This document shows, one piece after another, positions 293-41,052 of a DNA stretch of 55,533 nt. The position numbers were made by a program, and so were the translations under genes. The stretch covers positions 1 through 55,533 of the IMG/VR virus record IMGVR_UViG_3300014499_000008. One strand, given 5' to 3'. Numbering within the stretch: the stretch's first letter is position 1; each line of letters begins with the position of its first letter. Under the pieces are notes generated by a model. The model made no database searches, was not told the DNA's origin, and saw nothing but the letters and a program-made list of their open reading frames with translations. Source of the stretch: a virus.

Positions 293-862
293 ATGAATGT
301 TGCTGAGATGGATGAAGCTCCGCCGCTGAACGCGTATAAGTTCGCCACGCTTCGCTCACTGCGCGCCTGCCTGCGATCGTTTTCGTCGCTTAGTTCGCTT
401 ACTAATAGCGGCGACTTTGAATCGGCCACGATCTTGTTTGATCTGGCCGGGGCTATCAATGATCCGTTACAGCGCACGATGGTGTTGACGCCTCGACAGA
501 AGCAGGCTATCACGCTTCATCTCATTCAAGACAAACATGTCTCGGATGTATCACGGGAGATGGGCGTTACCGAGCGCGTCGTGTACCTCTTGGTGAACAC
601 CGGGTTACGTCGCCTCTTGTCGTTTCTGCAGGTCGGTGTGCTGCCGCAGTTCAGCGGGTGGAAACAGTGGGAACAGTGGCAAATCGATTACGTTCGGCAT
701 AATGCTGGGAAGTCACGTAAGGAGATTGGTGAACGTGTTGGGCGGTCGGAAGATGCTGTTCGGGTTCTCATCTGTCGCTTGCGTAAAGGAGGCGAGCGAC
801 TTGAAACTGGAAGCCGACGCAATCTTGGCTGCAGACCGGCGCTTGAACGGCAATCGGCTTGA
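293..862 (+). CDS. Sigma-region-4-like HTH regulator
   Basis: A 189-residue protein with two helix-turn-helix-like segments. Residues about 65-112 (LTPRQKQAITLH, then VSDVSREMGVTERVVY) match the sigma-70 region 4 / LuxR-type pattern. A second possible HTH (RKEIGERVGRSEDAVRVL) lies near residues 140-160. Phage proteins of this sort just before the terminase often control late transcription or resemble small-terminase DNA-binding subunits. The ATG at 293 sits directly after an extended -10 box and has no SD; a second ATG at 308 is an alternative start. The 3' end overlaps the next gene, read in another frame. Confidence 0.7.
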   Translation: MNVAEMDEAPPLNAYKFATLRSLRACLRSFSSLSSLTNSGDFESATILFDLAGAINDPLQRTMVLTPRQKQAITLHLIQDKHVSDVSREMGVTERVVYLLVNTGLRRLLSFLQVGVLPQFSGWKQWEQWQIDYVRHNAGKSRKEIGERVGRSEDAVRVLICRLRKGGERLETGSRRNLGCRPALERQSA

Positions 863-7690: not shown

Positions 7691-7761
7691 GTGCAACCAT
7701 GATGGTGTCGTTTGTGTCATAGGGAGCGGAGGGACTTCCTCCACGACTGAAAAGGCTACAA
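7691..7761 (+). promoter_or_regulatory. Conserved leader element (copy 1)
   Basis: It contains the 19-mer TGCAACCATGATGGTGTCG (7692-7710), also found exactly at 37328-37346 and 41034-41052 on the minus strand. An AGGGAGCG box follows, then a hairpin (GGAGG, CCTCC arms) and AAAAGGCTACA just before ATG 7762. This copy lies in the structural block, while most copies precede early genes, so the gene behind it may be expressed separately from the head operon. Confidence 0.65.
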
Positions 7762-8253
7762 ATGACTACCAAAACACTTCCCCGGTTCGCGCAGCTTGCG
7801 CAAGAGCTATTCGATGCGATCGAGCCCGCAACGCGTTCAAACACTGACGAGAAGTACCTACGTCTCAAAGACGGTTCGCCGGAGTGGATGAAGTCAGCCA
7901 TCCGTTATGCACACGACGATGCACAAATGCTGCCGGACGATCTTCGCTACGAATACATCAACGACGCGGCGGAGATGTTGGCCCAGTGTGAAGATGAAGA
8001 TGCGGTCAACGATCTTGAGTTCGAGGCAGACATCTGTCACCATGAATTGTTCGCATGGTTAGCTTCACACGGCACGCGTTATAGTTACGTTGATGAAGAG
8101 GTCGAAGAGAACGGTCACTCTAGCGACGGTCTGATCGGCGATCTGCAGGCGGGTCAAGTGCGTGAGAAACAGGAAGTGTTGCAGCAGTTGTTTCACGCAC
8201 TGCAAACGCAAGCGGAGAACGAACCCAATGCCAATGACGAAGGCGGAGAGTAA
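7762..8253 (+). CDS. Acidic hypothetical protein
   Basis: A 163-residue, strongly acidic helical protein with several aromatic positions (EWMKSAIRYAHDD, about 41-53; ELFAWLASHGTRYSYVDE, about 95-112). No catalytic motif or named family is recognised. It has its own leader (AAAAGGCTACAA before ATG 7762) with the conserved 19-mer upstream. That marks it as belonging, by regulation, with the accessory genes though it lies between two capsid-associated effector genes. It could be an immunity or anti-defence protein; that is only a guess from position. Confidence 0.75.
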   Translation: MTTKTLPRFAQLAQELFDAIEPATRSNTDEKYLRLKDGSPEWMKSAIRYAHDDAQMLPDDLRYEYINDAAEMLAQCEDEDAVNDLEFEADICHHELFAWLASHGTRYSYVDEEVEENGHSSDGLIGDLQAGQVREKQEVLQQLFHALQTQAENEPNANDEGGE

Positions 8254-15511: not shown

Positions 15512-15767
15512 TTTGCGTAATTAGTGTGCCTGCTGCCGATGATACCGCTGCAGCGGAGTGAGGGAAACGATGGGATAAAAAGAGTTCGCTTGTAGCGACT
15601 ACGCAGGTCCCTGACAAATCTTCATCTGATCGCGTTTCTCCTGACGGGCGATCCGATGGTGGCGCTGAAGCCTCGATAGTACCGCCGACACGGGAACTCG
15701 GGGCTTTGTCGTGGAAGGAGGCGATCAGCCGTCTTTGAGCAGGCGGTGATCGATCGTCGTTAGTAGC

Positions 15768-15850
15768 CTTTCGGCGTGGGAGGCAGAGGGCCGCATTCAC
15801 TCCTGTGAGCGCGGTCCTTTGTTTTGCTCGTGTATGATGGTGTCGCGGCA
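15768..15850 (-). promoter_or_regulatory. Leader-like element without a clear gene (copy 6)
   Basis: Read on the minus strand this has CGACACCATCA, then an AGGAGTGAA box, then GAAAGGCTAC, the layout of the early-gene leaders. GAAAGGCTAC is followed by TAAC rather than a start codon. A minus-strand frame (15851-15459) begins inside the element but looks non-coding. It may drive a non-coding transcript or be the relic of a lost gene. Confidence 0.45.
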
Positions 15851-16087
15851 TTACAAGTTAGTGAGCATGCAGATCGAGCGAACTGTGCAGAACGGTCTGC
15901 TGCGTCCTATGCGTCTAGGGTGGCCCAGTTCGCCCGGTAACTGCGGTACTTTCGTACTGTTCACGTCTTGACACGGCTAATTCGGTGCGTATCATTGAAT
16001 GATTCCCCCGCCGTGCATTGACTGTGCGCCCGCAACCCTCTTGAGAGTCTCGGTCATTGTCATGGCAAAACATAAGGCTACGAAGAT

Positions 16088-16940: not shown

Positions 16941-17125
16941 ATGATGACGCACAGTGTGATAACTGTAAGCGTAGCGTCGAAGAACACGTAATCGTTATCA
17001 CGCCCGATATGCTTTCGATTGCGCTGCGCGGCGGTATTGATGCGCTCGGTACGATCGGCAAGCTGCACATGATTTGTCCAACGTCACTCTTTGAATTTAA
17101 TACAACGAGAGTAGGTGAGAGATGA
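16925..17125 (+). CDS. Small CxxC protein
   Basis: A 66-residue protein starting at GTG 16925, overlapping the previous gene by 16 bases. CDNC lies at residues 11-14; the middle is hydrophobic and helical. It ends in an ATGA overlap with the Acb2-like gene. Function unknown. Confidence 0.55.
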   Translation: MDSSVDDDAQCDNCKRSVEEHVIVITPDMLSIALRGGIDALGTIGKLHMICPTSLFEFNTTRVGER

Positions 17126-17355
17126 GCTTACATTCGTCAACGTTTAGTTATCTTCTACCTAATGACGATCAGAAGGTGAAGATGGAACGCCTTCGAGAAG
17201 CGGTGAAGGTTTATGCAAAAGTAATCGAAGCCGACATTCAAGATGGTCCCGATAAAACATACATATTCCGCAGGCTGCGTGAAATAGCTATGTGGGTGAA
17301 CGTTGCGATCACGCGATGTGCCGACGGTACTCCGCGTACTGATCGTGAGCCTTAG
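17122..17355 (+). CDS. acb2: Probable Acb2-type anti-CBASS cyclic-nucleotide sponge
   Basis: A 77-residue helical protein. The second half carries LREIAMWVNVAITR (about residues 53-66) after a DDQKVKMERLREA helix, the pattern of the Acb2/Tad1 hairpin family (two helices with an MWxNxxI core). Acb2 proteins form hexamers that bind cyclic di- and trinucleotide signals and so block CBASS defence. Length and helix layout fit; the call comes from memory of the family pattern. It sits in an accessory operon, coupled by an ATGA overlap to the gene upstream. Confidence 0.6.
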   Translation: MSLHSSTFSYLLPNDDQKVKMERLREAVKVYAKVIEADIQDGPDKTYIFRRLREIAMWVNVAITRCADGTPRTDREP

Positions 17356-18322: not shown

Positions 18323-18530
18323 GCTAACGGCGATACGACAGTGCTACGTCAGCCCGGCGACTGGTTATGATTCGTTGCGCGACGTGTGCGATACGCTTGA
18401 ACGCGTGTATGTGCTGCTGGCGAACTCGATGACGCCCGGTAAGCCTGGGTACGGTGAGGGGATCAATAGTTCGAAGCTCGCCGCCGCGCTCGAAGGCGTT
18501 GACTATGTTCGCCCGGTAGGGCAAGTATGA
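18288..18530 (+). CDS. Small hypothetical protein
   Basis: An 80-residue frame overlapping the previous gene by 35 bases. A TTG at 18309 is an alternative later start. The product looks helical and soluble (DSLRDVCDTLERVYVLLANS, about 28-47). No family recognised. It ends by overlapping the excisionase-like gene by four bases. Confidence 0.5.
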   Translation: MTLKNCTLTRAKLTAIRQCYVSPATGYDSLRDVCDTLERVYVLLANSMTPGKPGYGEGINSSKLAAALEGVDYVRPVGQV

Positions 18531-18727
18531 TGATGGCTGAATTGACGTTCGATACTGCGCCTGATGTGATGACGGTGCCGGAAGCGGCGGTGCTCTTGCG
18601 CGTCTCAGCCGATTCGTTGTATCGAGCGATCGGGCGAGGTGAGTTCCCCGGCGCGAAGATCGGTAGCCGGTACCTCGTGGGCAAGGCGGCGATCTTGGCT
18701 TGGTTGGCGGAGAAGTCTCAGCACTAG
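18527..18727 (+). CDS. Excisionase-like HTH protein (MerR/HTH_17 type)
   Basis: A 66-residue single-domain protein with the classic helix-turn-helix of excisionases and MerR-like adaptors: MTVPEAAVLLRVSADSLYRA (15-34), then the wing GEFPGAKIGSRYLV. Three in-frame ATG codons (18527, 18530, 18533) compete for the start. Its place directly upstream of the integrase gene supports a role as recombination directionality factor or as regulator of int. The attP-like site lies about 13 kb away, where a second HTH protein of the same type is encoded (31710-32300). Confidence 0.7.
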   Translation: MMMAELTFDTAPDVMTVPEAAVLLRVSADSLYRAIGRGEFPGAKIGSRYLVGKAAILAWLAEKSQH

Positions 18728-18740
18728 GCAGGAGGTCCTG

Positions 18741-18805
18741 TTGGTGTCGCTGGTGAACGAGGCAAGCGTGGGTTCCCTCTAGCTCACCATCAGCAAAGGC
18801 TACAC
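18741..18805 (+). promoter_or_regulatory. Leader of the integrase gene (variant copy)
   Basis: GGTGTCGCTGG resembles the GGTGTCGCCAGG of the other leaders. A possible stem joins GCTGGTGA with a TCACCATCAGC segment. CAAAGGCTACAC ends just before ATG 18806. It is less conserved than the minus-strand copies. Confidence 0.45.
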
Positions 18806-20089
18806 ATGGCGAAGATTCAAGACATGACGGGCATCACGCTCGTCACCCGTAAGGATGGAAGTCAGGCGTGGGAGATTCGACTCAGCACGCGAGAGAACGG
18901 GAAGCAGAAAGCGTACTGCGCGACCGTTGACACCTCGGAAGGGGCGGCGCGCAAGAAGCGTGACGAGCTTCGCGTGCAGATCGCGCTCAATCAGAAGAAT
19001 CGAAAGAAGAACGGGGCGAACGTATCGGTTGGTGATATACCATTCGCCGTCGCGTTCGATCGATTCATCGCGGAAAAGACGCTCGTGTACGATCAGAAGA
19101 AAACCGCCCAAGGCTATACCGAACTGGGCGTGCGGCTGAAGAAGGCGTTTGGCCCAGTCCCGTTCGGCAAACTCGATCGCGCGATGGTCCGTAAACAGAT
19201 CAAGGTGTGGAAGAAGTCCGGTAAGCTCAAACCGATTCGCGGTCAAGCAGCGATCGATCTGAAAGAAGGCCTATCGGATTACCATATCAACAAACATCTT
19301 TCGCTGTTAGGCACCGTTTACAACTACTTCATCGAGGAAGTAGAAGCAGGCGACATCATGAGTCCGGTGTCGAAGAACATGATGTTCAAGATACCGAAGC
19401 CCAAGCAAGACGAGACAACGACGTATAGCTGGGCGCAGGTGAATCAATTGTTCGCCGCCGCCGATGCGTATCCGGCGCGTTCGAGTTTCAACAAACTGCG
19501 GTTGAAAGCCGTCACGCACTTGATGATCTTTCTCGGCTTGCGGCGTGGTGAGGTGTTCGGTTTATCATTTGACAGTATCGACTTCGAGAAGAAGAAGCTG
19601 CACATCTGGCAGGTTGTAGAGATTGATGCCTCTGAGAAACGTACTCCGGTATTGAAGCCGTGCCCCAAGACGGAAGATTCAGATCGTTGGTTAGCAATCG
19701 ATGATTACACGCTGGCAATCTTGAAAGCGTTGCGCTCGGAATATAATAAGCTGAAGCTCGCATCGAAAGGATTGTTCGATGCAAACAATCATCGACTGGT
19801 GTTTGGCGATGTAAAAGGCAACCCATATTCCGGCAGCAATTTCAACTGCGTGTATACGCGTCTCGTGAAGCGGGCAAAGCTGCCGTACGTTTCACCGCAT
19901 CAACTGCGACATACGTTCGGCACGCTACAGCGCGCGGCAGGTATCGACATGGAGACGATCGCAAAGCGCATGGGGCACAAGTCGCGGATGGTGACGGACA
20001 TTTATGCGGAGTGGAACGTCGAGATGGATCGGCGCTGCCAAAACATCTTGATCGCAGCATACGAAGGTTCGCTCAAGGTCGCTTCGTAA
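18806..20089 (+). CDS. int: Tyrosine integrase
   Basis: A 427-residue site-specific recombinase that joins phage attP with host attB. The N-terminal 60 residues look like an arm-binding domain, residues about 75-190 like the SAM-like core-binding domain, and the rest is catalytic: Arg 246 (LGLRRGE), Lys 288 (PKTEDSDR), His 365 and Arg 368 (HQLRHTFGT), His 391 (MGHKS) and the nucleophile Tyr 400 (DIYAEW). All key residues are present, so it should be active. The start ATG follows AAAGGCTACAC. A hairpin with a T run lies downstream. Confidence 0.95.
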   Translation: MAKIQDMTGITLVTRKDGSQAWEIRLSTRENGKQKAYCATVDTSEGAARKKRDELRVQIALNQKNRKKNGANVSVGDIPFAVAFDRFIAEKTLVYDQKKTAQGYTELGVRLKKAFGPVPFGKLDRAMVRKQIKVWKKSGKLKPIRGQAAIDLKEGLSDYHINKHLSLLGTVYNYFIEEVEAGDIMSPVSKNMMFKIPKPKQDETTTYSWAQVNQLFAAADAYPARSSFNKLRLKAVTHLMIFLGLRRGEVFGLSFDSIDFEKKKLHIWQVVEIDASEKRTPVLKPCPKTEDSDRWLAIDDYTLAILKALRSEYNKLKLASKGLFDANNHRLVFGDVKGNPYSGSNFNCVYTRLVKRAKLPYVSPHQLRHTFGTLQRAAGIDMETIAKRMGHKSRMVTDIYAEWNVEMDRRCQNILIAAYEGSLKVAS

Positions 20090-20169: not shown

Positions 20170-20190
20170 CAAGTTAGGAAAGGCTACATT

Positions 20191-28420: not shown

Positions 28421-29698
28421 ATGAAGTTCGCTGATGCGTTGTCGCTTAATACCGCTGCGATCAGCGTTGGGGCGACAACGCCTGTTGTTCCGATCGGCGC
28501 GTTGATCTATTCGACAACGGCATCATCGGTCTTGTGGTTCAACGGAACGTCGTGGGTTGCACTTACTTCCGGTTCGTCATCAGGAGCAGTCCCTATGTAT
28601 AACGCCGCCGGTACGGTGCAAACACCTCATGATGTCATTGGACAAGCAACACTAACACTGGTGAATGGCAGCGGTTCTGCACCAATTGCGCTGAGTGGCT
28701 TGGCAGCATTCACGAGCGCGGCGAGTTATGGGCTTGCATCACAACCGACTATTGTTGGTGGAACGTCTCCACTTGCCCCGATTAGTGCGATCACCACTGG
28801 ACTCAGCAGTCCACAGTGCGTAGCCGTTGATAGCACCGGCAATATCTACGTTGCGAACGCTGGCAATAGCACCGTAACGAAATACGCATCAACCGGCGGA
28901 GCAGCGATTCTCACCATCACGAGTGGACTCAGCAGCCCATACGGCGTAGCCGTTGATAGCACCGGCAATATCTACGTTGCGAACGCTGGCAATAGCACCG
29001 TAACGAAATACGCATCAACCGGCGGAGCAGCGATTCTCACCATCAGTAGTGGAATCAGCAGTCCACGCGGCATAGCCGTTGATAGCACCGGCAATATCTA
29101 CGTTGCGAACGCTGGCAATAGCACCGTAACGAAATACGCATCAACCGGCGGAGCAGCAATTCTCACCATCACGAGTGGGCTTAGCGCTCCATACGGCGTA
29201 GCCGTTGATAGCACCGGCAATATCTACGTTGCGAACACTGGCAATAGCACCGTAACGAAATACGCATCAACCGGCGGAGCAGCAATTCTCACCATCAGTA
29301 GTGGAATCAGCAATCCATACGGCGTAGCCGTTGATAGCACCGGCAATATCTACGTTGCGAACGCTGGCGGTAACAACGTACTGAAGTACGCATCAACCGG
29401 CGGAGCAGCGATTCTCACCATCAGTAGTGGAATCAGCAGTCCACGCGGCATAGCCGTTGATAGCAGCGGCAATATCTACGTTGCGAACAGTAGTTACGTG
29501 AGTGTTCTAACAAGCTCTGGAAGCGTTGTTTCATCAATTGGTCTTATGAATGCGCCTGCTTTAGCGACTGATGTGCTTCCGTTCTTTTCGTTAGCACCGA
29601 TTAGTGGTTCGAGTGCTGCCTTACTCTGTGCGGTTGAAGGCGCGGCAGCAAATGTCGATGGTACAATCGTCGTCACGTACAAGCTGAACGGGTATTAG
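28421..29698 (+). CDS. Six-unit NHL-type beta-propeller fibre protein (A)
   Basis: A 425-residue protein. An N-terminal attachment part (about 1-115; IYSTTASSVLWFNGTSWV resembles fibre collar units) is followed by six 42-residue units of the form GVAVDSTGNIYVANAGNSTV, then a C-terminal beta domain ending in TIVVTYKLNGY. Six units suggest a six-bladed propeller of the NHL/Vgb type. Variation is concentrated in a few positions: the residue before G in SPYG/SPRG/NPYG, and the AGNSTVT/AGGNNVL loop. The next gene is a tandem paralogue. A receptor-recognition role is inferred from position. Confidence 0.8.
   Translation: MKFADALSLNTAAISVGATTPVVPIGALIYSTTASSVLWFNGTSWVALTSGSSSGAVPMYNAAGTVQTPHDVIGQATLTLVNGSGSAPIALSGLAAFTSAASYGLASQPTIVGGTSPLAPISAITTGLSSPQCVAVDSTGNIYVANAGNSTVTKYASTGGAAILTITSGLSSPYGVAVDSTGNIYVANAGNSTVTKYASTGGAAILTISSGISSPRGIAVDSTGNIYVANAGNSTVTKYASTGGAAILTITSGLSAPYGVAVDSTGNIYVANTGNSTVTKYASTGGAAILTISSGISNPYGVAVDSTGNIYVANAGGNNVLKYASTGGAAILTISSGISSPRGIAVDSSGNIYVANSSYVSVLTSSGSVVSSIGLMNAPALATDVLPFFSLAPISGSSAALLCAVEGAAANVDGTIVVTYKLNGY
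28790..29500 (+). repeat. Tandem 126-bp repeats in propeller gene A
   Basis: Six tandem units of 126 bases (42 codons) encode the blades. Most of each unit is identical at the DNA level, synonymous sites included, so the array is young or kept uniform by gene conversion. Confidence 0.8.
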
Positions 29699-29704
29699 CC
29701 CGGA

Positions 29705-30991
29705 ATGAAGTTCGGGGGAGTGGTCGTTCCTGGTAAGGCTGCAATCAGCATCGGGGCGACAACTCCAAACGCCCCCAAGGGTTCACTCATGTACTCGACT
29801 TCAACATCGAGTATCTTGCAATTCAATGGCACTTTATGGCAATACCTCACAACAGGCAGGTCACTGCCGATATGGATGCTTCCCATGTATAACGCCGCTG
29901 GCACACTGCAAACGAATCCCCATGAGGTCATCGGACAAGCAACGATAACGCTGGTGAATCTTGCTGGTTCTGTTCCCATTACCTTGAGTGGTTCTGCTGC
30001 ATTTACCAGTGCAGCGAGCTATGGATTTGCTTCACAACCGACGATTGTTGGTGGAACGTCTCCACTTGCCCCGATGAGTGCGATCACCACTGGACTCAGC
30101 AATCCATACGGCGTAGCCGTTGATAGCAGTGGCAATATCTACGTTGCGAACGCTGGCAATAGCACCGTAACGAAATACGCATCAACCGGCGGAGCAGCGA
30201 TTCTCACCATCAGTAGTGGACTCAGCAATCCATACGGCGTAGCCGTTGATAGCACCGGCAATATCTACGTTGCGAACACTGGCGGTAACAACGTACTGAA
30301 GTACGCATCAACCGGCGGAGCAGCGATTCTCACCATAAGTGGACTCAGCAGTCCATCCGGCGTAGCCGTTGATAGCACCGGCAATATCTACGTTGCGAAC
30401 TATGGCGGTAACAACGTACTGAAGTACGCATCAACCGGCGGAGCAGCAATTCTCACGATCACCACTGGAATCAGCAGCCCATACGGCGTAGCCGTTGATA
30501 GCACTGGCAATATCTACGTTACGAACACTGGCAATAGCACCGTAACGAAATACGCATCAACCGGCGGAGCAGCGATTCTCACCATCACTAGTGGAATCAG
30601 CACTCCACGCGGCGTAGCCGTTGATAGCACTGGCAATATCTACGTTACGAACACTGGCAATAGCACCGTAACGAAATACGCATCAACCGGCGGAGCACCG
30701 ACTCTAACCATCACGAGTGGGCTTAGCAGTCCATACGGCGTAGCCGTTGATAGCAGTGGCAATATCTACGTTACGAACACTGGCAATAGCAGCATCAAAG
30801 TGTTTACGAGTATTGGCGGGACGTTAAACACTCTTGTTGGTGCAGCAGTAGCGGCTACAGCAGTTGTACCCGTCTTTTCGCTCTACCCGATTAGTGGGTC
30901 AAGTTGTACCTTACAGTGTGTGGTCGAAGGCGCAACAGCAGCAAATGTCGATGGGACAATCATCGTTACCTATGACTTACGGGGGTATTAA
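29705..30991 (+). CDS. Six-unit NHL-type beta-propeller fibre protein (B)
   Basis: A 428-residue tandem paralogue of the protein encoded just upstream: same N-terminal part (SASYGFASQPTIVGGTSPLA in both, with small changes), six blade units and the same C-terminal TIIVTYDLRGY ending. One unit is shortened (TISGLSSPSG). Loop residues differ from paralogue A (TGNSTVT, TGGNNVL, YGGNNVL, and VTN for VAN in the last three units). The two genes may give alternative receptor-binding tips or hetero-oligomers. Confidence 0.8.
   Translation: MKFGGVVVPGKAAISIGATTPNAPKGSLMYSTSTSSILQFNGTLWQYLTTGRSLPIWMLPMYNAAGTLQTNPHEVIGQATITLVNLAGSVPITLSGSAAFTSAASYGFASQPTIVGGTSPLAPMSAITTGLSNPYGVAVDSSGNIYVANAGNSTVTKYASTGGAAILTISSGLSNPYGVAVDSTGNIYVANTGGNNVLKYASTGGAAILTISGLSSPSGVAVDSTGNIYVANYGGNNVLKYASTGGAAILTITTGISSPYGVAVDSTGNIYVTNTGNSTVTKYASTGGAAILTITSGISTPRGVAVDSTGNIYVTNTGNSTVTKYASTGGAPTLTITSGLSSPYGVAVDSSGNIYVTNTGNSSIKVFTSIGGTLNTLVGAAVAATAVVPVFSLYPISGSSCTLQCVVEGATAANVDGTIIVTYDLRGY
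30075..30790 (+). repeat. Tandem 126-bp repeats in propeller gene B
   Basis: Six units, one of 123 bases, nearly identical to those of gene A about 1.2 kb upstream. Direct repeats this close should recombine and change the number or order of blades. Confidence 0.8.
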
Positions 30992-35804: not shown

Positions 35805-35954
35805 CCGGAAGTGTAGCGATGTAATATCTTCAATCCAACGTGAGTTAAGGCATCCGGTCGGTTCCGCCGCGCGCAGTGCGTTTTCGAGTCGCTTCGCTGC
35901 GCGTGCAGCCTTTTCCAACCGCGCAACCTTCTGTGCCTGCGTCAACTTGATCAT
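35748..35954 (-). CDS. Small basic helical protein
   Basis: A 68-residue protein with a strongly helical Ala/Lys/Arg-rich N-terminal half (QKVARLEKAARAAKRLENAL). ATG 35954 overlaps the stop of the previous leftward gene (ATGA). No family recognised. Confidence 0.55.
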   Translation of the reverse strand: MIKLTQAQKVARLEKAARAAKRLENALRAAEPTGCLNSRWIEDITSLHFRLEEAVDFEAARFSWPTPR

Positions 35955-36219
35955 GCGTGCGGTAAGCCTCGCTCCGTGCGTACTGCGACGAGACGTTCGC
36001 GCAATGCGGTGAGGCAGTCAGCGCAAAGTCTGTCGCGAATATCGAGGTCGTCTTGTGATACCGATCGTGACCACTCCGCGTAGTGCCGGTGACGTTTACC
36101 GCACGCGGTCAGCTTATCGTCATTGGTTCCCAAGCACGTTGTCAGATGCCACTCTGACGCCCGTTTGCGCGACCAATTCGCCCAAGTCGTCCAAGGTACG
36201 TTTTGCGTTGTCATTTGTA
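35951..36219 (-). CDS. Small protein with HxxC and CxxC-like sites
   Basis: An 89-residue basic protein from ATG 36219, which directly follows GAAAGGCTACAA of a conserved leader. An upstream in-frame start exists but lies inside the leader. It has Cys at CLGTND, CGKRH and CADC, a possible zinc site. No family recognised. Confidence 0.6.
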
Positions 36220-36288
36220 GCCTTTCGAGGACCGTTCCGGCCCTTCGCTCCTCACAACCCTGATGGTGTCGCAATGGTTGCAAGCGGA
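36220..36288 (-). promoter_or_regulatory. Conserved leader element (copy 3)
   Basis: On the minus strand: TTGCAACCATT, then GCGACACCATCA (the reverse of the core in copies 1, 2 and 5), GGGTTGTGAGGAGCGAAGG, a wobble-paired hairpin (GGGCCG GAA CGGTCC) and GAAAGGCTACAA before ATG 36219. A TTGCAA/TTGTGA pair could act as -35/-10. Confidence 0.7.
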
Positions 36289-36333
36289 AGGACCCCATTT
36301 CTGAGGTCCTTTGCCGATCGTCGCCCGCCTGTA

Positions 36334-37275
36334 CTACGCTGCTACTGCAACCGCTGCCGCTTCGTCCTCGGCCTCTTCCGGTTCTTCAGCGGCCCGCCGT
36401 CCCGCCGCCGTGGCGAGGAAGTCAGCCGCCTTCGCCGCCGCCGCTGCAGCGGTCAGGATAGCCTTGCTGTCCGACTTCAGCACTTTGATCCAATGGGCGA
36501 GATACTCGGGGTGGCGGAGGTGTCCCTCGATACCGAGTTCCGCGACGACGAACGCGGCGGTGAGTTCGGCGACGAGTTCCTCGAACGCGTACGCGTCATC
36601 ACCGAACCGCTTGCCGAAGGTTCTTGCAAGCCGGTGTGCCGCGCCGGTCCAATGACCGTGCTCGTGGAAGCTCGTTCCGTAGTACGCTGCGGGTGACTCG
36701 AACTGCTCGAACTTCGGCAGCGTGATCGAGTCGGCGCTGGGCGTGTAAAACGCTGAGTCGCCGCCGTGGTGAACTTTGCTGCCGATCGCGGCGATGAACG
36801 CTTCCGCATCGGCGAGTCGTTCGCCCTGCGTCGGCAATTCGACAACCGGCCGGGCGGGGAGTTTAAGGTTGTCGCACTGCGCGACGTTGAACACCGTGTA
36901 CGACTTCAGCAGCGGGAACGATGACTTGCCCGACTTCGCCTTCGCATCGTCGCGGGTGAGGATGGTGAAGAAGAAGATCGAGGTCCCCTTCTCGCCCTTG
37001 CGCACCGAACCACCAAGATCGATAGCCTGTTTGAACGATAACCATTCGCCGGTCGGATAGCCCGCGCTTGCGGCGGTGATCCAAAGATTCAGAACGTTCG
37101 CGCCCCGGTACGCCTTCTTCGTCACAACGTTGAGGGGGAGGTCAGAGAGTCCGTTGGTCGCCCAGGGACGAACCCAGGGAGCAGTTCCCGCTTCAAGCTG
37201 TTCGATGATCTTCATCGTAACGACGTGGAACTTGTCGGCGGCTGACGGCCCCTTCGCCTTCGGTTTGAAACCCAT
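36334..37275 (-). CDS. ardC: ArdC-type antirestriction protein with zincin
   Basis: A 313-residue protein. The N-terminal domain (about 12-130) has the ArdC pattern: IIEQLEAGTAPWVRPW (23-38), YRGANVLNLW (56-65), GEWLSFKQA and VRKGEKGTSIFFF (91-103). The C-terminal zincin has HEHGH (204-208) and the third ligand in FEELVAEL (231-238). ArdC proteins bind single-stranded DNA and protect incoming DNA from restriction. The tail after residue 270 is Ala/Glu-rich low complexity. It has its own leader, so it is an early gene made at once after entry. Confidence 0.88.
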   Translation of the reverse strand: MGFKPKAKGPSAADKFHVVTMKIIEQLEAGTAPWVRPWATNGLSDLPLNVVTKKAYRGANVLNLWITAASAGYPTGEWLSFKQAIDLGGSVRKGEKGTSIFFFTILTRDDAKAKSGKSSFPLLKSYTVFNVAQCDNLKLPARPVVELPTQGERLADAEAFIAAIGSKVHHGGDSAFYTPSADSITLPKFEQFESPAAYYGTSFHEHGHWTGAAHRLARTFGKRFGDDAYAFEELVAELTAAFVVAELGIEGHLRHPEYLAHWIKVLKSDSKAILTAAAAAAKAADFLATAAGRRAAEEPEEAEDEAAAVAVAA

Positions 37276-37347
37276 GATGTGTAGCCTTTCGAGGGGCAGA
37301 GCACCCCTTCGCTCCTTACAACCCTGGCGACACCATCATGGTTGCAC
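37276..37347 (-). promoter_or_regulatory. Conserved leader element of ardC (copy 2)
   Basis: On the minus strand: TGCAACCATGATGGTGTCG (37346-37328), CCAGGGTTGTAAGGAGCG, a hairpin with arms AGGGG and CCCCT, and GAAAGGCTACA before ATG 37275. It starts right after a terminator for the upstream operon. Confidence 0.75.
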
Positions 37348-37353
37348 GCCGGG

Positions 37354-37387
37354 ACAAGAAAAAGCCCCGGTCGCTGCCGGGGCCTTT
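37354..37387 (-). terminator. Rho-independent terminator
   Basis: On the minus strand, GCCCCGG and CCGGGGC form a seven-pair stem with a six-base loop followed by five T. It ends the leftward transcript after the gene at 37394 and insulates the ardC promoter. Confidence 0.85.
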
Positions 37388-37393
37388 CGATGA

Positions 37394-37660
37394 TCAGATG
37401 TGCTCACTTTCCAGTGATAGCAGTTCATCGAGAACACGTTTCGGCAGTGCGGCTTTCACTGCTAGGGCAAGGGCACGCATTTGCGCGCCCTCGGCTGACT
37501 TACCTTCACCTTTTACGACGTGACGCTGACCGCCGTACTCAGCGGTAACGTCGGCAACCCAAAGAATGCGTTCGTCAGTCGCATCTTTGACGTTGACGCC
37601 GATCACGGCAATATCCATTGCGATCGATTGCGCGATGGCGACGAGAGTGATTGCTTTCAT
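37394..37660 (-). CDS. Small hypothetical protein
   Basis: An 88-residue alpha/beta protein (IAVIGVNVKDAT strand; SAEGAQMRALALAVKAALP helix). Last gene of a leftward operon, linked by a TAATG junction to the gene before. No motif recognised. Confidence 0.6.
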   Translation of the reverse strand: MKAITLVAIAQSIAMDIAVIGVNVKDATDERILWVADVTAEYGGQRHVVKGEGKSAEGAQMRALALAVKAALPKRVLDELLSLESEHI

Positions 37661-37896
37661 TATTTGCGATCTTCCACGAAGTTGAAATACGTGCGCGGGT
37701 AGTGGGTGAACTCCATACTGCCCTTCATGCCGTCGCTTCTGCGGCGAACCACGACGAACGGTGCCATGAAGCCGAGAACCTCGAACTCAGCGCGCAGGGC
37801 GTCGGTGTCCCAAGTCTTGTCGGCGAACAAAACATCAACAGCGGGGGCGTTAGAAGCGATCATCGCGCGGCGGATTGATTCGGTATCGTCTTGCAT
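37660..37896 (-). CDS. Small hypothetical protein, leader-type SD
   Basis: A 78-residue protein from ATG 37896, chosen because AAAAGGCTACAAC lies directly upstream. The frame extends to 37995, but that part runs through the upstream gene's end. The C-terminal half (FMAPFVVVRRRSDGMKGSMEF, then HYPRTYFNFV) is beta-rich and resembles phage hypotheticals of unknown role. Confidence 0.65.
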   Translation of the reverse strand: MQDDTESIRRAMIASNAPAVDVLFADKTWDTDALRAEFEVLGFMAPFVVVRRRSDGMKGSMEFTHYPRTYFNFVEDRK

Positions 37897-37924
37897 GTTG
37901 TAGCCTTTTCTTGCTGGAAGTGAG

Positions 37925-38173
37925 TTATTTGTTGAGCGATCGTGCTGCCATCGGGGATTGATACGTGCAGCCTTTGCACCGCATATACATTGCAATGCCC
38001 TTGCCGCCGATCAAGAGCGGGTTGCTGACTTCGACTTCCCACTGCACGAAGATATGACCGTCGCACTCCGGGCATACATCACTTTTAGAGGTAAACTCGC
38101 CGAGCTTGCGTGGTTCGCCTGTCACCGTTGCGCCCGTGCCGTCGTCGGGTCGCATGATTACCATCTGGCTCAC
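37925..38173 (-). CDS. Zinc-ribbon protein
   Basis: An 82-residue protein from GTG 38173, which forms a GTGA overlap with the previous stop and follows GGGAG at good spacing; a first ATG lies at 38164. CPEC and CKGC about 30 residues apart form a zinc ribbon around a beta sheet (HIFVQWEVEV). Possibly nucleic-acid binding. Role unknown. Confidence 0.65.
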   Translation of the reverse strand: MSQMVIMRPDDGTGATVTGEPRKLGEFTSKSDVCPECDGHIFVQWEVEVSNPLLIGGKGIAMYMRCKGCTYQSPMAARSLNK

Positions 38174-38445
38174 AATGTTTCTCCCTTGTAAACGCCGACA
38201 AGTTGATACCGCCAATTGATGTTCGCGCCGATGTCAGGTAACCGTTGCGGAGGCACATCAACTTCAAGCATCGCGGCGGGGGAGCCAAAGGAAACGAACT
38301 GGCGGTGGCCCAGGAGTTGACTGCCGAAGTCCTGGTTCTCATAGACCGCGATACCGTCCCCGCGCGCCAACCATTTGTTGACGACGGCGTAATGTTCGGG
38401 GTCGAGTTGCAACTCGTCTTTGCTGAGCATCTTCGTCTTTTTCAT
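38170..38445 (-). CDS. Small hypothetical protein
   Basis: A 91-residue protein, conserved-looking: YAVVNKWLARGDGIAVYENQ (19-38), then LGHRQFVSFG. The pattern is familiar from phage and plasmid small proteins of unknown role. It is linked to both neighbours by overlaps (TAATG upstream, GTGA downstream). Confidence 0.6.
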   Translation of the reverse strand: MKKTKMLSKDELQLDPEHYAVVNKWLARGDGIAVYENQDFGSQLLGHRQFVSFGSPAAMLEVDVPPQRLPDIGANINWRYQLVGVYKGETL

Positions 38446-38678
38446 TAGCTGCCCGCCATGTACGTTAGATTGATCGATGGCGCATCACGAAACTTGTCGA
38501 GTCCTTCGTCAGTGATGTACGCGACACCGAACTCGCTAAAGTGATCCGCGCACGTTGCGCCAACGATCTGCCCCTTCTCATCCATGATCGTCCATTGCGT
38601 CTCAGCGAAGCATTCCTTGTTCGCGCACATCCAAACGCCGACACTCACTGCGACGGTGAAGTTATTCCTGCGTGCCAT
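38445..38678 (-). CDS. Small protein with CxxxxC
   Basis: A 77-residue protein from ATG 38678 (TAATG junction with the gene upstream); the longer frame to 38828 overlaps that gene and lacks an SD. WMCANKECFAE (about 16-26), later TCADHF. It may bind a metal. No family recognised. Confidence 0.6.
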   Translation of the reverse strand: MARRNNFTVAVSVGVWMCANKECFAETQWTIMDEKGQIVGATCADHFSEFGVAYITDEGLDKFRDAPSINLTYMAGS

Positions 38679-38935
38679 TATGCTGATGCCTTCCCACGTT
38701 CTTGCGCTCGCGCCGCGCGAATCATGTTCGACAGCATCACCTTCGCGCCGTTGATCATCGCATTCGCCTGACTGTTCTGTTCGATGCCTCCGGCATGCTG
38801 CGCATCGCTGAGCAGCAACATGATGCACATCGGATATTCAACGATGTTGGTCGGCGGGATGGGACGCCCGCAACTGTTGCTGTAGTCCTTCGCGAAGAAG
38901 TCCCAGTTGTCGGACGTGTTCGGATTGTTTGTCAT
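38678..38935 (-). CDS. Small hypothetical protein
   Basis: An 85-residue helical protein with Asn-rich N-terminus and a basic Ala/Arg-rich end (MIRAARAQERGKASA). It starts at ATG 38935 within AAAAGGCTACACAATAATG, where the SD also codes for the end of the upstream gene. No family recognised. Confidence 0.55.
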   Translation of the reverse strand: MTNNPNTSDNWDFFAKDYSNSCGRPIPPTNIVEYPMCIMLLLSDAQHAGGIEQNSQANAMINGAKVMLSNMIRAARAQERGKASA

Positions 38936-39291
38936 TATTGTGTAGCCTTTTTACTAACAGGGTTCGGGTAGCGAAGTGAGTCGCGAAGTGCGGCGAGTTT
39001 ACGCTCCTGCTCGTCGCAACGAAGGTTTCGTCGGCAGGCACCGGGAGTTTGAACTGGCAGTGCGCGGTCGCCCTTGCAGTAGTCACAACGTTCGATGAAG
39101 TTGCCGAACCATCTACCGGATGCAGCGAGTTCGAGGACAAACTGATCACCGCTGACGCCCATCACGTCAGCGGGTTCAAACCCGCCCTTCGCGCGCCAAG
39201 CACGGTACGCTAAGAGCAGTTCTTGGGCGGTGTCGAGTTCGTATGCGAGCAACGCCGTGCGCGCATCGAGGAGGCATTGAACCGGGTCCAT
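38935..39291 (-). CDS. Hypothetical protein with Cys motif
   Basis: A 118-residue protein. An N-terminal helical part (LLDARTALLAYELDTAQELL) is followed by a Cys cluster (CDYC about 69-72, then CRRNLRC about 85-91), a possible zinc site. It starts at ATG 39291, overlapping the previous stop. No family recognised. Confidence 0.6.
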   Translation of the reverse strand: MDPVQCLLDARTALLAYELDTAQELLLAYRAWRAKGGFEPADVMGVSGDQFVLELAASGRWFGNFIERCDYCKGDRALPVQTPGACRRNLRCDEQERKLAALRDSLRYPNPVSKKATQ

Positions 39292-39575
39292 TAGCTGCGC
39301 TCCTCGGTCATCCGGTCAACGAACTCTTGCGTCCCGAACGAACCCGGTTCGAGGTCAGACTGTGCAGGAACCGTATTCCCCCAGTAGTCTTTGTGCCGTT
39401 CCGTTCCAACGGTGCAGTAACCGTTCTTGATGAGGTCCATCGCTTCGCGACCGGCGCTGCCTTGGAAGTGCCAGATCGTACCGTCGTTGATCATGGCTTG
39501 GATACCGGCAATGTGCTCCTCGAAGGTCTGCTCCTCCGGTTCGACCATCGTGGTGTATGTATCGGTGTTATCCAT
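39291..39575 (-). CDS. Small acidic hypothetical protein
   Basis: A 94-residue protein from ATG 39575, chosen because GAAAGGCTACACACA lies directly upstream; an earlier start at 39614 lies inside the leader hairpin. The TIWHFQGSAGREAMDLIKNG segment (about 33-52) resembles a small phage family of unknown role. First gene after leader copy 4. Confidence 0.65.
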   Translation of the reverse strand: MDNTDTYTTMVEPEEQTFEEHIAGIQAMINDGTIWHFQGSAGREAMDLIKNGYCTVGTERHKDYWGNTVPAQSDLEPGSFGTQEFVDRMTEERS

Positions 39576-39651
39576 TGTGTGTAGCCTTTCTGAGTGAGAG
39601 GCTTGGCCCCTCACTCCTCACAACCCTGATGGTGTCGTTTCGGTTGCAGCC
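39576..39651 (-). promoter_or_regulatory. Conserved leader element (copy 4)
   Basis: On the minus strand: TGCAACCGAAA, CGACACCATCAGGGTTGTGA (same orientation and sequence as copy 3), a long hairpin with arms GAGTGAG and CTCACTC, and GAAAGGCTACACAC before ATG 39575. The hairpin sequence differs from the other copies while pairing is kept. Confidence 0.75.
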
Positions 39652-39652
39652 G

Positions 39653-40906
39653 CTAGACCGCAACCTTCACTTTCTTCACTTTGACTTTCGTGCCTTTCGG
39701 AACGATTGTCACCCGGTTCAGAACCGTTTGCTTCCGACCATTGTACTCGCTGTGCTTTTTCACGGTCGCGAGGACCGTTATCGTGCTGCTGAGCTTGAAC
39801 TCTTCCGTCTTGTCGCCGGAGGCGAACCACGTCAGTGATTGGCCCTCGGCATCGAGGAAGTTGACGATCGTGGTCATGCCGTAATCACCTTCACGCGCCA
39901 CACAACCGATCACTTCAACATCTTCGATCACTTGGCGCACGCCGACCGTGCCAACGTGCGCGGTAACGACTGCCTTCCGGCTCTCGGTCGCTTTCCGTTC
40001 CGCAACCTTGCCGAGATACCGATTGTAGGACGCTACCGCGCTGATCGCGATGCCGTACTGCTTCGGCTCAACTAAGCCTTGCGAGAGAACGAGCTTGACG
40101 TTGTGCGTGTAATCGTTGCTCGCTGCGTCAGCATTCCAGTGCTGCAACGTTGCGAATGCGAGGAGATTATCATCATCGTTCGGAGAATCGATGTGCCACT
40201 CTTCACGTTGCTTCGCTGTGTGCGCCTCGAAGAAGTTGTTGATACGATCGGCGGTCGCGAGCGCACGCCCACTCCAATCATTCTTTGCTTCCGTCCGTGA
40301 CATCCAACCGAACTGCCGTATCGTCGCCGCACTCCACGAGAGGAGTGAGAAGATCGATGTCCGCGCGACGTATCCGCCGCCGCCACCGAAACCATCGCTG
40401 TCGCCATCGCTGCCGAAGTCATCGAGTTCCAAAAGGAACGTGAGGGCGGCGGCAATGGAGTGAGGGTCAGCACCACCAAGGAAGTCGGCGATGCACTGTC
40501 GGCCCAGTTGTTTCCATTCACCCTGTTCGTTGTAAACGAGGAAGGTCGCCGTCCGTCGCCGATCGAGGCCGCAGTGATCGCAGGTCGGCTTCGAGGTCCG
40601 GTACGCTTCTGGCGCTTCCGGCGTCCCCGGCACCTTGCGAATCGAGTTCCCGCCGTCGAGTTGATCGAGGGTCGCGGCGAACGTCCAACCGGCGAACTTC
40701 GGCGTTACGCCGTTGACTTCGACCGTGTACCACTGAACGAACATCTCACGACCGAAGTCGTCAACGCCCGCTGCACGGTTCTCCGTGTCCAACACCGTGT
40801 AGGTGATGGTTGGAAGGTTCAGCTTCGCGGCGCGCTTGTTGAGCTTGCCGATCTTCTCTTCGAGTTCCCAGAACCTCGGCACTGGGATGGTGTATGTTGC
40901 TTGCAT
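39653..40906 (-). CDS. Zinc-finger/OB-fold-like phage and plasmid protein
   Basis: A 417-residue protein. CDHCGLDRRRTATFLV (109-124) with LGRQCIADFLGG (134-145) is a zinc-binding unit typical of a family common to large phages and plasmids. A Gly-rich hinge (about 172-179) leads to a helical part. The C-terminal 100 residues (from about 315; VRQVIEDVEVIGC, YNGRKQTVLNRVTIV) look like an OB fold, suggesting nucleic-acid binding. Its tail is Lys/Val-rich. No enzymatic residues can be named. First gene after leader copy 5. Confidence 0.7.
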   Translation of the reverse strand: MQATYTIPVPRFWELEEKIGKLNKRAAKLNLPTITYTVLDTENRAAGVDDFGREMFVQWYTVEVNGVTPKFAGWTFAATLDQLDGGNSIRKVPGTPEAPEAYRTSKPTCDHCGLDRRRTATFLVYNEQGEWKQLGRQCIADFLGGADPHSIAAALTFLLELDDFGSDGDSDGFGGGGGYVARTSIFSLLSWSAATIRQFGWMSRTEAKNDWSGRALATADRINNFFEAHTAKQREEWHIDSPNDDDNLLAFATLQHWNADAASNDYTHNVKLVLSQGLVEPKQYGIAISAVASYNRYLGKVAERKATESRKAVVTAHVGTVGVRQVIEDVEVIGCVAREGDYGMTTIVNFLDAEGQSLTWFASGDKTEEFKLSSTITVLATVKKHSEYNGRKQTVLNRVTIVPKGTKVKVKKVKVAV

Positions 40907-41052
40907 GTTTGTAGCCTTTCGAGTTTTTGAATCGTTCGATCAAACTCGAACGCTTTCAATCTGTTTTGTGAGTCATCTTTCAGTTTTCAAGGTTCCGGGA
41001 GCGTTACGGCCCCTACGCACCTCATAACCCTGGCGACACCATCATGGTTGCA
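40907..41052 (-). promoter_or_regulatory. Conserved leader element, long form (copy 5)
   Basis: On the minus strand: TGCAACCATGATGGTGTCG (41052-41034), CCAGGGTTATGAGGTGCG, about 75 extra bases, then a hairpin with arms CGAGTTT and AAACTCG right before AAAGGCTACA. GGTTATGA is the most -10-like version of this site among the copies. Confidence 0.7.

Follow-up and report, generated by a model that had tools for sequence, protein, structure and literature searches.

A phage-specific word in both orientations within the spacer of repeated promoter-like elements of an uncultured phage

In the uncultured phage IMGVR_UViG_3300014499_000008, analysed over positions 1-55,533 of its record (the window, labelled G000), a 33-bp element made of a 7-bp left box (TGCAACC), a 16-bp spacer and a 10-bp right box recurs upstream of genes, and the inner part of its spacer is present in both orientations, turned exactly in place. 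The boxes recur as the bipartite motif TGMAACC-N16-GGTTATRAGG, at identical spacing and mostly just upstream of genes, in two further uncultured phages, G002 and G004, with different spacer words; each phage has its own word within the common box design, and in two of the phages the word runs in both directions. We consider it probable that boxes and word together constitute a set of promoters with an inner putative operator, because fixed boxes at a distance of 16 bp, variable content between them and a position just upstream of genes make up the anatomy of promoters, and a phage-specific word in both orientations resembles an operator for a phage-specific regulator occupying the spacer. The evidence comes from metagenomic contigs, with only about 12 good sites among them.

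Matches to GCAACC-N(10-20)-GGGTT number four in the window against 0.04 expected, and all four of the leader copies with shared flanks that an earlier note on this DNA had described are present (E1-E4, all leftward; Table 1). A repeat search added a fifth, rightward copy, A, at 7692+, which that note had missed together with the core words at 15835-15846 (C) and 18739-18750 (B), the latter ending 55 bp ahead of the integrase gene. Its assignment of copies to genes also needed correction, since E4 belongs to gene 39653-40906 and the copy within 39576-39651 (E3) serves gene 39291-39575. Downstream genes start close to the elements. E1 and E2 lie directly 3' of terminator-like hairpins belonging to the preceding gene, so that the genes downstream, of which ardC encodes a product with ArdC N-terminal and zincin domains, need either their own promoter or read-through.

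The reversal is most clearly seen when the spacers are compared. They read ATGATGGTGTCGCCAG in both E2 and E4, ATGATGGTGTCGTTTG in A, ATTGCGACACCATCAG in E1 and GAAACGACACCATCAG in E3; the core is forward in E2, E4 and A, and reversed in E1 and E3. Over the central 14 bp, A is the perfect reverse complement of E3 (14/14), and E1 agrees with the reverse complement of E2/E4 at 13 of 14 positions. Moving a reverse-complemented spacer across its partner element put the best match at offset 7, that is, in place, in all five of five pairs, and the next-best placement reached at most 9/16. The outermost spacer bases, A or G at the left end and G at the right end, are unturned relative to the core. 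The unit that flips is, then, 14 bp in the centre of the fixed 16-bp spacer, bounded by CAACC[A/G] and GGGTT. The earlier note had described an inner 12-mer reversed in the copies at 36220-36288 and 39576-39651; the reversal itself stands, while the E3 12-mer carries one mismatch (ACGACACCATCA) and the unit is better taken as 14 bp. Two sub-variants of the core exist, TTT (forward in A, reversed in E3) and CCA/CAA (forward in E2 and E4, reversed in E1), which implies at least two changes of orientation if each sub-variant arose once. From this we infer, short of proof, that the sites flipped as physical inversions rather than by divergence of half-sites. The 11-mer TGATGGTGTCG has seven copies in the window against 0.09 in first-order Markov controls, five of them in the promoter-like elements, one alone (15835) and one inside a coding gene (53146).

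Relatives were found by a capsid protein search (G001 at 86%, G002 at 69% and G003 at 56%, with three more distant ones added later), and G004 (contig L008), without detectable similarity to the window, was first found by pattern. A two-box scoring matrix derived solely from the copies in the window, for spacings of 15-17, was run on them all; the sites of G002 and G004 score higher than shuffled sequence or close to its maximum. In the eight records searched whole with up to three mismatches, the motif matches five times in G000, four times in G002, three times in G004 and not at all in the other five, and a reversed control pattern gave no match in any of the eight. A looser box pair (searched in G002 and part of G004) occurs in six of six cases at spacing 16 and at none of the other spacings from 8 to 28, compared to a shuffled mean of 0.02 (first-order Markov). 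Two of the G002 elements form a divergent back-to-back pair (L041:7868-/7870+). In G004 and at one G002 copy the element ends only a few nucleotides ahead of the start codon, too close for a leader to fit. The earlier note had held that its idea would fall if related phages showed no enrichment upstream of genes; the motif is found there in G002 and G004, and the idea survives this check. Among other IMG/VR contigs the window word was not found combined with the boxes. Across IMG/VR, a relaxed flank pattern gave 29 loci, nearly all chance-like single matches, with further copies in L008 alone; a broader box pattern gave 93 loci, mostly chance matches in coding sequence, with at least two good sites in L008/G004 and G002 only; the window core with the -35 box gave 81 loci, none with a -10 box; and no reversed core with a -10 box was found. 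A homologue of the 417-aa gene occurs in Tunturiibacter phage Tunturi_5, where the motif was not enriched (2 versus 1 in the control).

The spacer words of these phages differ in sequence. The G002 word CTAGACTTGAA has four exact copies against 0.08 expected: one in a promoter-like spacer (L043:13401), two reaching into a -35 box from its upstream side (L042:15950 and L043:11223) and one at the integrase start (L043:8228-), where it is flanked by the integrase gene and by an HTH_17 gene with 36% identity to that of the window, as is B in the window. The spacer of the L041:7868- element contains a further copy, reversed and with one mismatch. TGATGGTGTCG and CTAGACTTGAA are each one asymmetric word repeated at several promoter-like sites and specific to its phage, as would be expected of an asymmetric phage operator; the G004 word ACCCTTTGAATCGG, confined to two promoter-like spacers, is probably the operator word of that phage. 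The suggestion that this is an asymmetric protein-binding site working both ways thus gains support, as far as sequence can tell, from a second phage, in which the arrangement recurs with another word. Candidate helix-turn-helix proteins are encoded in the phage at 293-862, 18527-18727, 31710-32300 and 33702-34274, none of them linked to the core word.

Table 1. Promoter-like elements, core words and predicted 5' hairpins in the window, and two-box sites in other phages
Feature	Position	Strand	Sequence	Remarks
E1, promoter-like	36250..36282	-	-35-like TGCAACC 36276-36282; spacer 36260-36275; -10-like GGTTGTGAGG 36250-36259	upstream of gene 35951-36214
E1 core	within 36260-36275	-	TTGCGACACCATCA	reversed
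E2, promoter-like	37314..37346	-	TGATGGTGTCGCCA	core forward; upstream of ardC 36334-37275
E3, promoter-like	39616..39648	-	AAACGACACCATCA	core reversed; upstream of gene 39291-39575
E4, promoter-like	41020..41052	-	TGATGGTGTCGCCA	core forward; ~110 bp from ATG of gene 39653-40906
A, promoter-like	7692..7724	+	TGATGGTGTCGTTT	core forward; degenerate -10 TGTCATAGGG; upstream of gene 7762-8253
B, core-like word	18739..18750	+	TGTTGGTGTCGC	1 mismatch; between HTH_17 gene (18527-18727, 66 aa) and integrase (18806-20089); boxes poor
C, exact core 12-mer	15835..15846	+		without recognisable boxes; gene-poor stretch; adjoins leader-like remnant on - strand
5' hairpin, predicted E1 transcript	36226..36247	-		then ribosome site GAAAGGCTAC; z -2.6
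5' hairpin, predicted E2 transcript	37290..37311	-		then GAAAGGCTAC; z -0.9
5' hairpin, predicted E3 transcript	39593..39615	-		then GAAAGGCTAC; z -3.2
5' hairpin, predicted A transcript	7726..7744	+		then AAAAGGCTAC; z -1.0
G002 site			TGAAACC-TAGACTTCGGGAGTCG-GGTTATGAGG	two-box matrix
G002 site			TGAAACC-TAGTCTTTAAAACTAG-GATTATGAGG	two-box matrix
G002 site			TGCAATC-ACTGACTTTCAAGTCT-TGTTATGAGT	two-box matrix; AAT in place of AAC
G002 site			CGCAACC-TAGACTTGAAACGCAG-TGTTATGAAG	two-box matrix
G002 site, spacing 17			TGCAACC-TATTTTTATACCGTTAG-GGTTATGGGG	two-box matrix
G001 site			TGCAACC-TCGAAGGTGTCACGGC-TGTTCTGGAG	upstream end of G001 leftward operon
G004 (L008) site			TGCAACC-ACCCTTTGAATCGGTG-GGTTATGAGG	
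G004 (L008) site			TGAAACC-ACCCTTTGAATCGGCG-GGTTATAAGG	
G004 (L008) site			TGCAACC-TTTCTCCCGCCGGGTG-GGTTTTAAGT	

Let us consider how such elements might work. They would form a family of promoters for early or accessory genes, with TGMAACC as the -35 box and GGTTATRAGG as the -10 box, 16 bp apart, and the spacer would contain the operator of a DNA-binding regulator specific to the phage (TGATGGTGTCG in the window, CTAGACTTGAA in G002 and probably ACCCTTTGAATCGG in G004). Bound between the boxes, the regulator would most simply block RNA polymerase; for a steric block the direction of the site is irrelevant, so that both orientations could persist. We would favour repression over activation because indifference to direction is most easily obtained by steric blocking. 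Since the AACC and GGTT of the boxes are complementary, the spacer could have turned in place without moving, perhaps by a hairpin or template-switch inversion. Transcripts would start just 3' of the -10 box and, in E1-E3 and A, would carry a 5' hairpin followed by a GAAAGGCTAC ribosome site. In each of these four, the stretch next to the -10 box can fold into a hairpin of its own sequence, and AAAGGCTAC and the start codon come after it; the folding energies, scored against mononucleotide shuffles, are suggestive only. No Rfam covariance model matched in the window.

Several further observations concern the leaders. The leader of E4 (window 40904-41020) is about 110 nt long and includes a strong hairpin CGTTCGAGTTTGATCGAACG, the leaders of the other copies being short. 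An extended ribosome-site context, GAAAGGCTACA, precedes many start codons (for example 36216-36226, 37280-37290, 39580-39590, 40910-40920 and 20178-20188), and its counterpart in G002 is GAAAGGCTAGA. On the minus strand of window 15700-15900 lies a leader-like remnant, consisting of a reversed core with a perfect 12-mer, hairpin arms and GAAAGGCTACT, without a recognisable start codon and without -35 or -10 boxes.

As to what reads the boxes, we tentatively entertain, somewhat short of favouring it, a sigma factor of the extracytoplasmic function (ECF) type; this is offered as a lead only. ECF promoters have the motifs AAC and CGT (PMC3426412), and EcfG promoters of alphaproteobacteria carry GGAAC or GCAAC and, after N16, CGTT or also GGTT, TGTT or CATT (PMC7083833). 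The present elements resemble them in an AAC-containing -35 box, a GTT-containing -10 box and about 16 bp between (PMC7083833, PMC3426412), and differ from them by the TATRAG extension after GTT, a spacing one longer and the putative operator in the spacer. The AAC is found in the TGMAACC of most copies, with AAT in one G002 copy; where ECF promoters would have CGT or CGTT at 16 +/- 1 bp, the elements have GGTT, TGTT or GATT at a fixed 17 bp from GCAAC, and the first base is not C. A sigma-70 reading of the boxes was rejected, as the spacing would be about 21. A phage-encoded sigma was also considered, and none with region 2 was found in the four phage records tested. The 189-aa protein of window 293-862 has two sigma-70 region-4-like helix-turn-helix stretches, lies directly upstream of the terminase genes and is more like a late regulator. 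It has a homologue at the same place in G002 (L040:11646-12017). No relevant paper came out of a literature search for ECF promoters in phages, and protein similarity gave no clear answer as to the host; the similarity of ArdC leans to alphaproteobacterial phages and plasmids, with the caveat that such genes move freely.

A number of points weigh against the reading of these elements as promoters with an inner operator, or against the sigma class. The -10 boxes are weak in A, B and the G001 site, the -35 box is absent in B and C, one G002 site has a spacing of 17, and the hairpin z-scores of E2 and A are not significant. G004 and G002 share genes of the replication region (37-50% protein identity), so that the three phages are linked by mosaic exchange and are not fully independent. 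For the sigma factor, the distance from GCAAC to GGTT is 17, one above that of EcfG promoters (PMC7083833), EcfG promoters lack the TATRAG that is strongly kept in the -10 box here, and sigma-70 region 2 (Sigma70_r2) was not found in the four phage records tested.

Among other explanations, one would take AACC...GGTT and the core as two halves of an imperfect palindrome bound by a dimeric repressor, with or without an overlapping promoter, the apparent flip being a swap of diverged half-sites. Each half can be read as CAACCnTGnnGnn, the flips are centred on one dyad, and several G002 spacers are near-palindromic (TAGTCTTTAAAACTAG). However, the TTT/AAA of A and E3 destroys the likeness of the half-sites and yet the two flip at 14/14, the core word also occurs alone (C), an asymmetric 11-mer stands outside the spacer in G002, and the right flank is kept as TTATRAG with no mirror of the left flank; we regard this explanation as unlikely. 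A second one places the element in the transcript, where a GCAACC/GGGTTG stem with a loop of 14-16 nt would act as an attenuator or protein-binding hairpin, its loop inverted by template switching. The two sequences are able to pair, the E3 fold uses this 6-bp stem, and chloroplast DNA offers documented examples in which a small loop flanked by inverted repeats has been inverted (PMC2903610). On the other hand, the folds of E1 and E2 lack that stem, the sites that abut a gene start leave no leader to act, and a ligand would meet a different sequence in an RNA loop that has been reverse-complemented. Furthermore, GATT or TGTT in G002, TGTC in A and TGTT in G001 disrupt the complementarity, with TTATRAG and the spacing kept in those G002 copies, and an RNA leader seems to us quite improbable. 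The same observation bears on the idea in the earlier note that the flanks act as recombination arms, which gains no support as their main role: TGMAACC, TTATRAG and the 16-bp spacing are kept in G002 and G004 although the complementarity is disrupted in several copies, so the flanks appear to be conserved as sequence, in the manner of promoter boxes, and not as inverted repeats, and the inverted repeat may be an accident through which the flip arose. That a recombinase turns the 14-bp core in a programmed manner, toggling each promoter between two regulatory states, is very improbable even with an integrase in the phage and flips exactly in place in at least two events (A/E3 and E1/E2/E4), considering arms of just 4-6 bp, flanks accounted for by promoter conservation, unturned outer spacer bases in E1 and E3, and no invertase-type gene among the scanned proteins.

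Returning to promoters with an inner operator, one may go a step further and imagine a promoter frame common to phages of one host range and read by a stress-type (ECF) sigma of the host, in which the immunity operator of each phage is a spacer cassette, independent of direction and repeatedly inverted in place. We hold this extension to be doubtful. If it were true, a phage could change its immunity type by swapping or turning 14 bp with the promoter untouched. If the simpler reading as promoters with an inner operator is true, promoter and operator become separable in uncultured phages from sequence alone, the outer boxes showing what the host RNA polymerase reads and the inner word the specificity of the phage regulator.

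Some other features were noticed in the same sequences. Between the promoter-like sites of G004, the non-coding stretch L008 9700-10270 holds TTGCAACC words in several places together with a GACTGGGC...GCGTAAAGC block that is repeated. A 77-aa protein (window 17122-17355) has a below-threshold match (E 6e-5) to the Acb2/Tad1 hairpin domain of anti-CBASS/anti-Thoeris sponges. In window 28672-30891, twelve 300-nt matches in 126-nt steps fall in the neighbouring related genes 28421-29698 and 29705-30991, whose product is a repeat protein similar to a phage beta-propeller family.

Lastly, the elements may be set beside known systems. The C1 operators of P1 are asymmetric 17-bp sites dispersed over the genome next to promoters and served by one repressor (PMC8546580); the present words are likewise asymmetric, dispersed and adjoining promoter-like sequence, and differ in being 11-14 bp long, within the spacer of a repeated promoter-like sequence and inverted in place. 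In cluster K mycobacteriophages, the start-associated sequences (SAS) and their extended form (ESAS) consist of a short asymmetric word that precedes certain genes, and an inverted repeat goes with half of them (PMC3203893). The repetition of a short asymmetric word ahead of selected genes is shared, whereas SAS lie at the translation start and the elements here mostly upstream of a separate ribosome site, with two fixed boxes. Hairpin-loop inversions in chloroplast DNA (PMC2903610) also reverse a segment between inverted repeats in place and repeatedly, with 18-bp arms in the cited case compared to 4-6 bp here, where the segment is a putative regulatory word. The stoperators and operators of cluster A mycobacteriophages (L5, TipsytheTRex) are asymmetric 13-bp, phage-specific sites of a monomeric repressor (PMC9283540, PMC6550527), and the stoperators are oriented with transcription and lose repression on reversal (PMC9283540). 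The words described here are similarly asymmetric and phage-specific; unlike stoperators, they run in both directions, rather than in a single orientation, in equivalent promoter-like elements. If these elements are indeed promoters with an inner operator, they would, in contrast to the L5 stoperators, offer a natural test of whether the direction of an operator matters.

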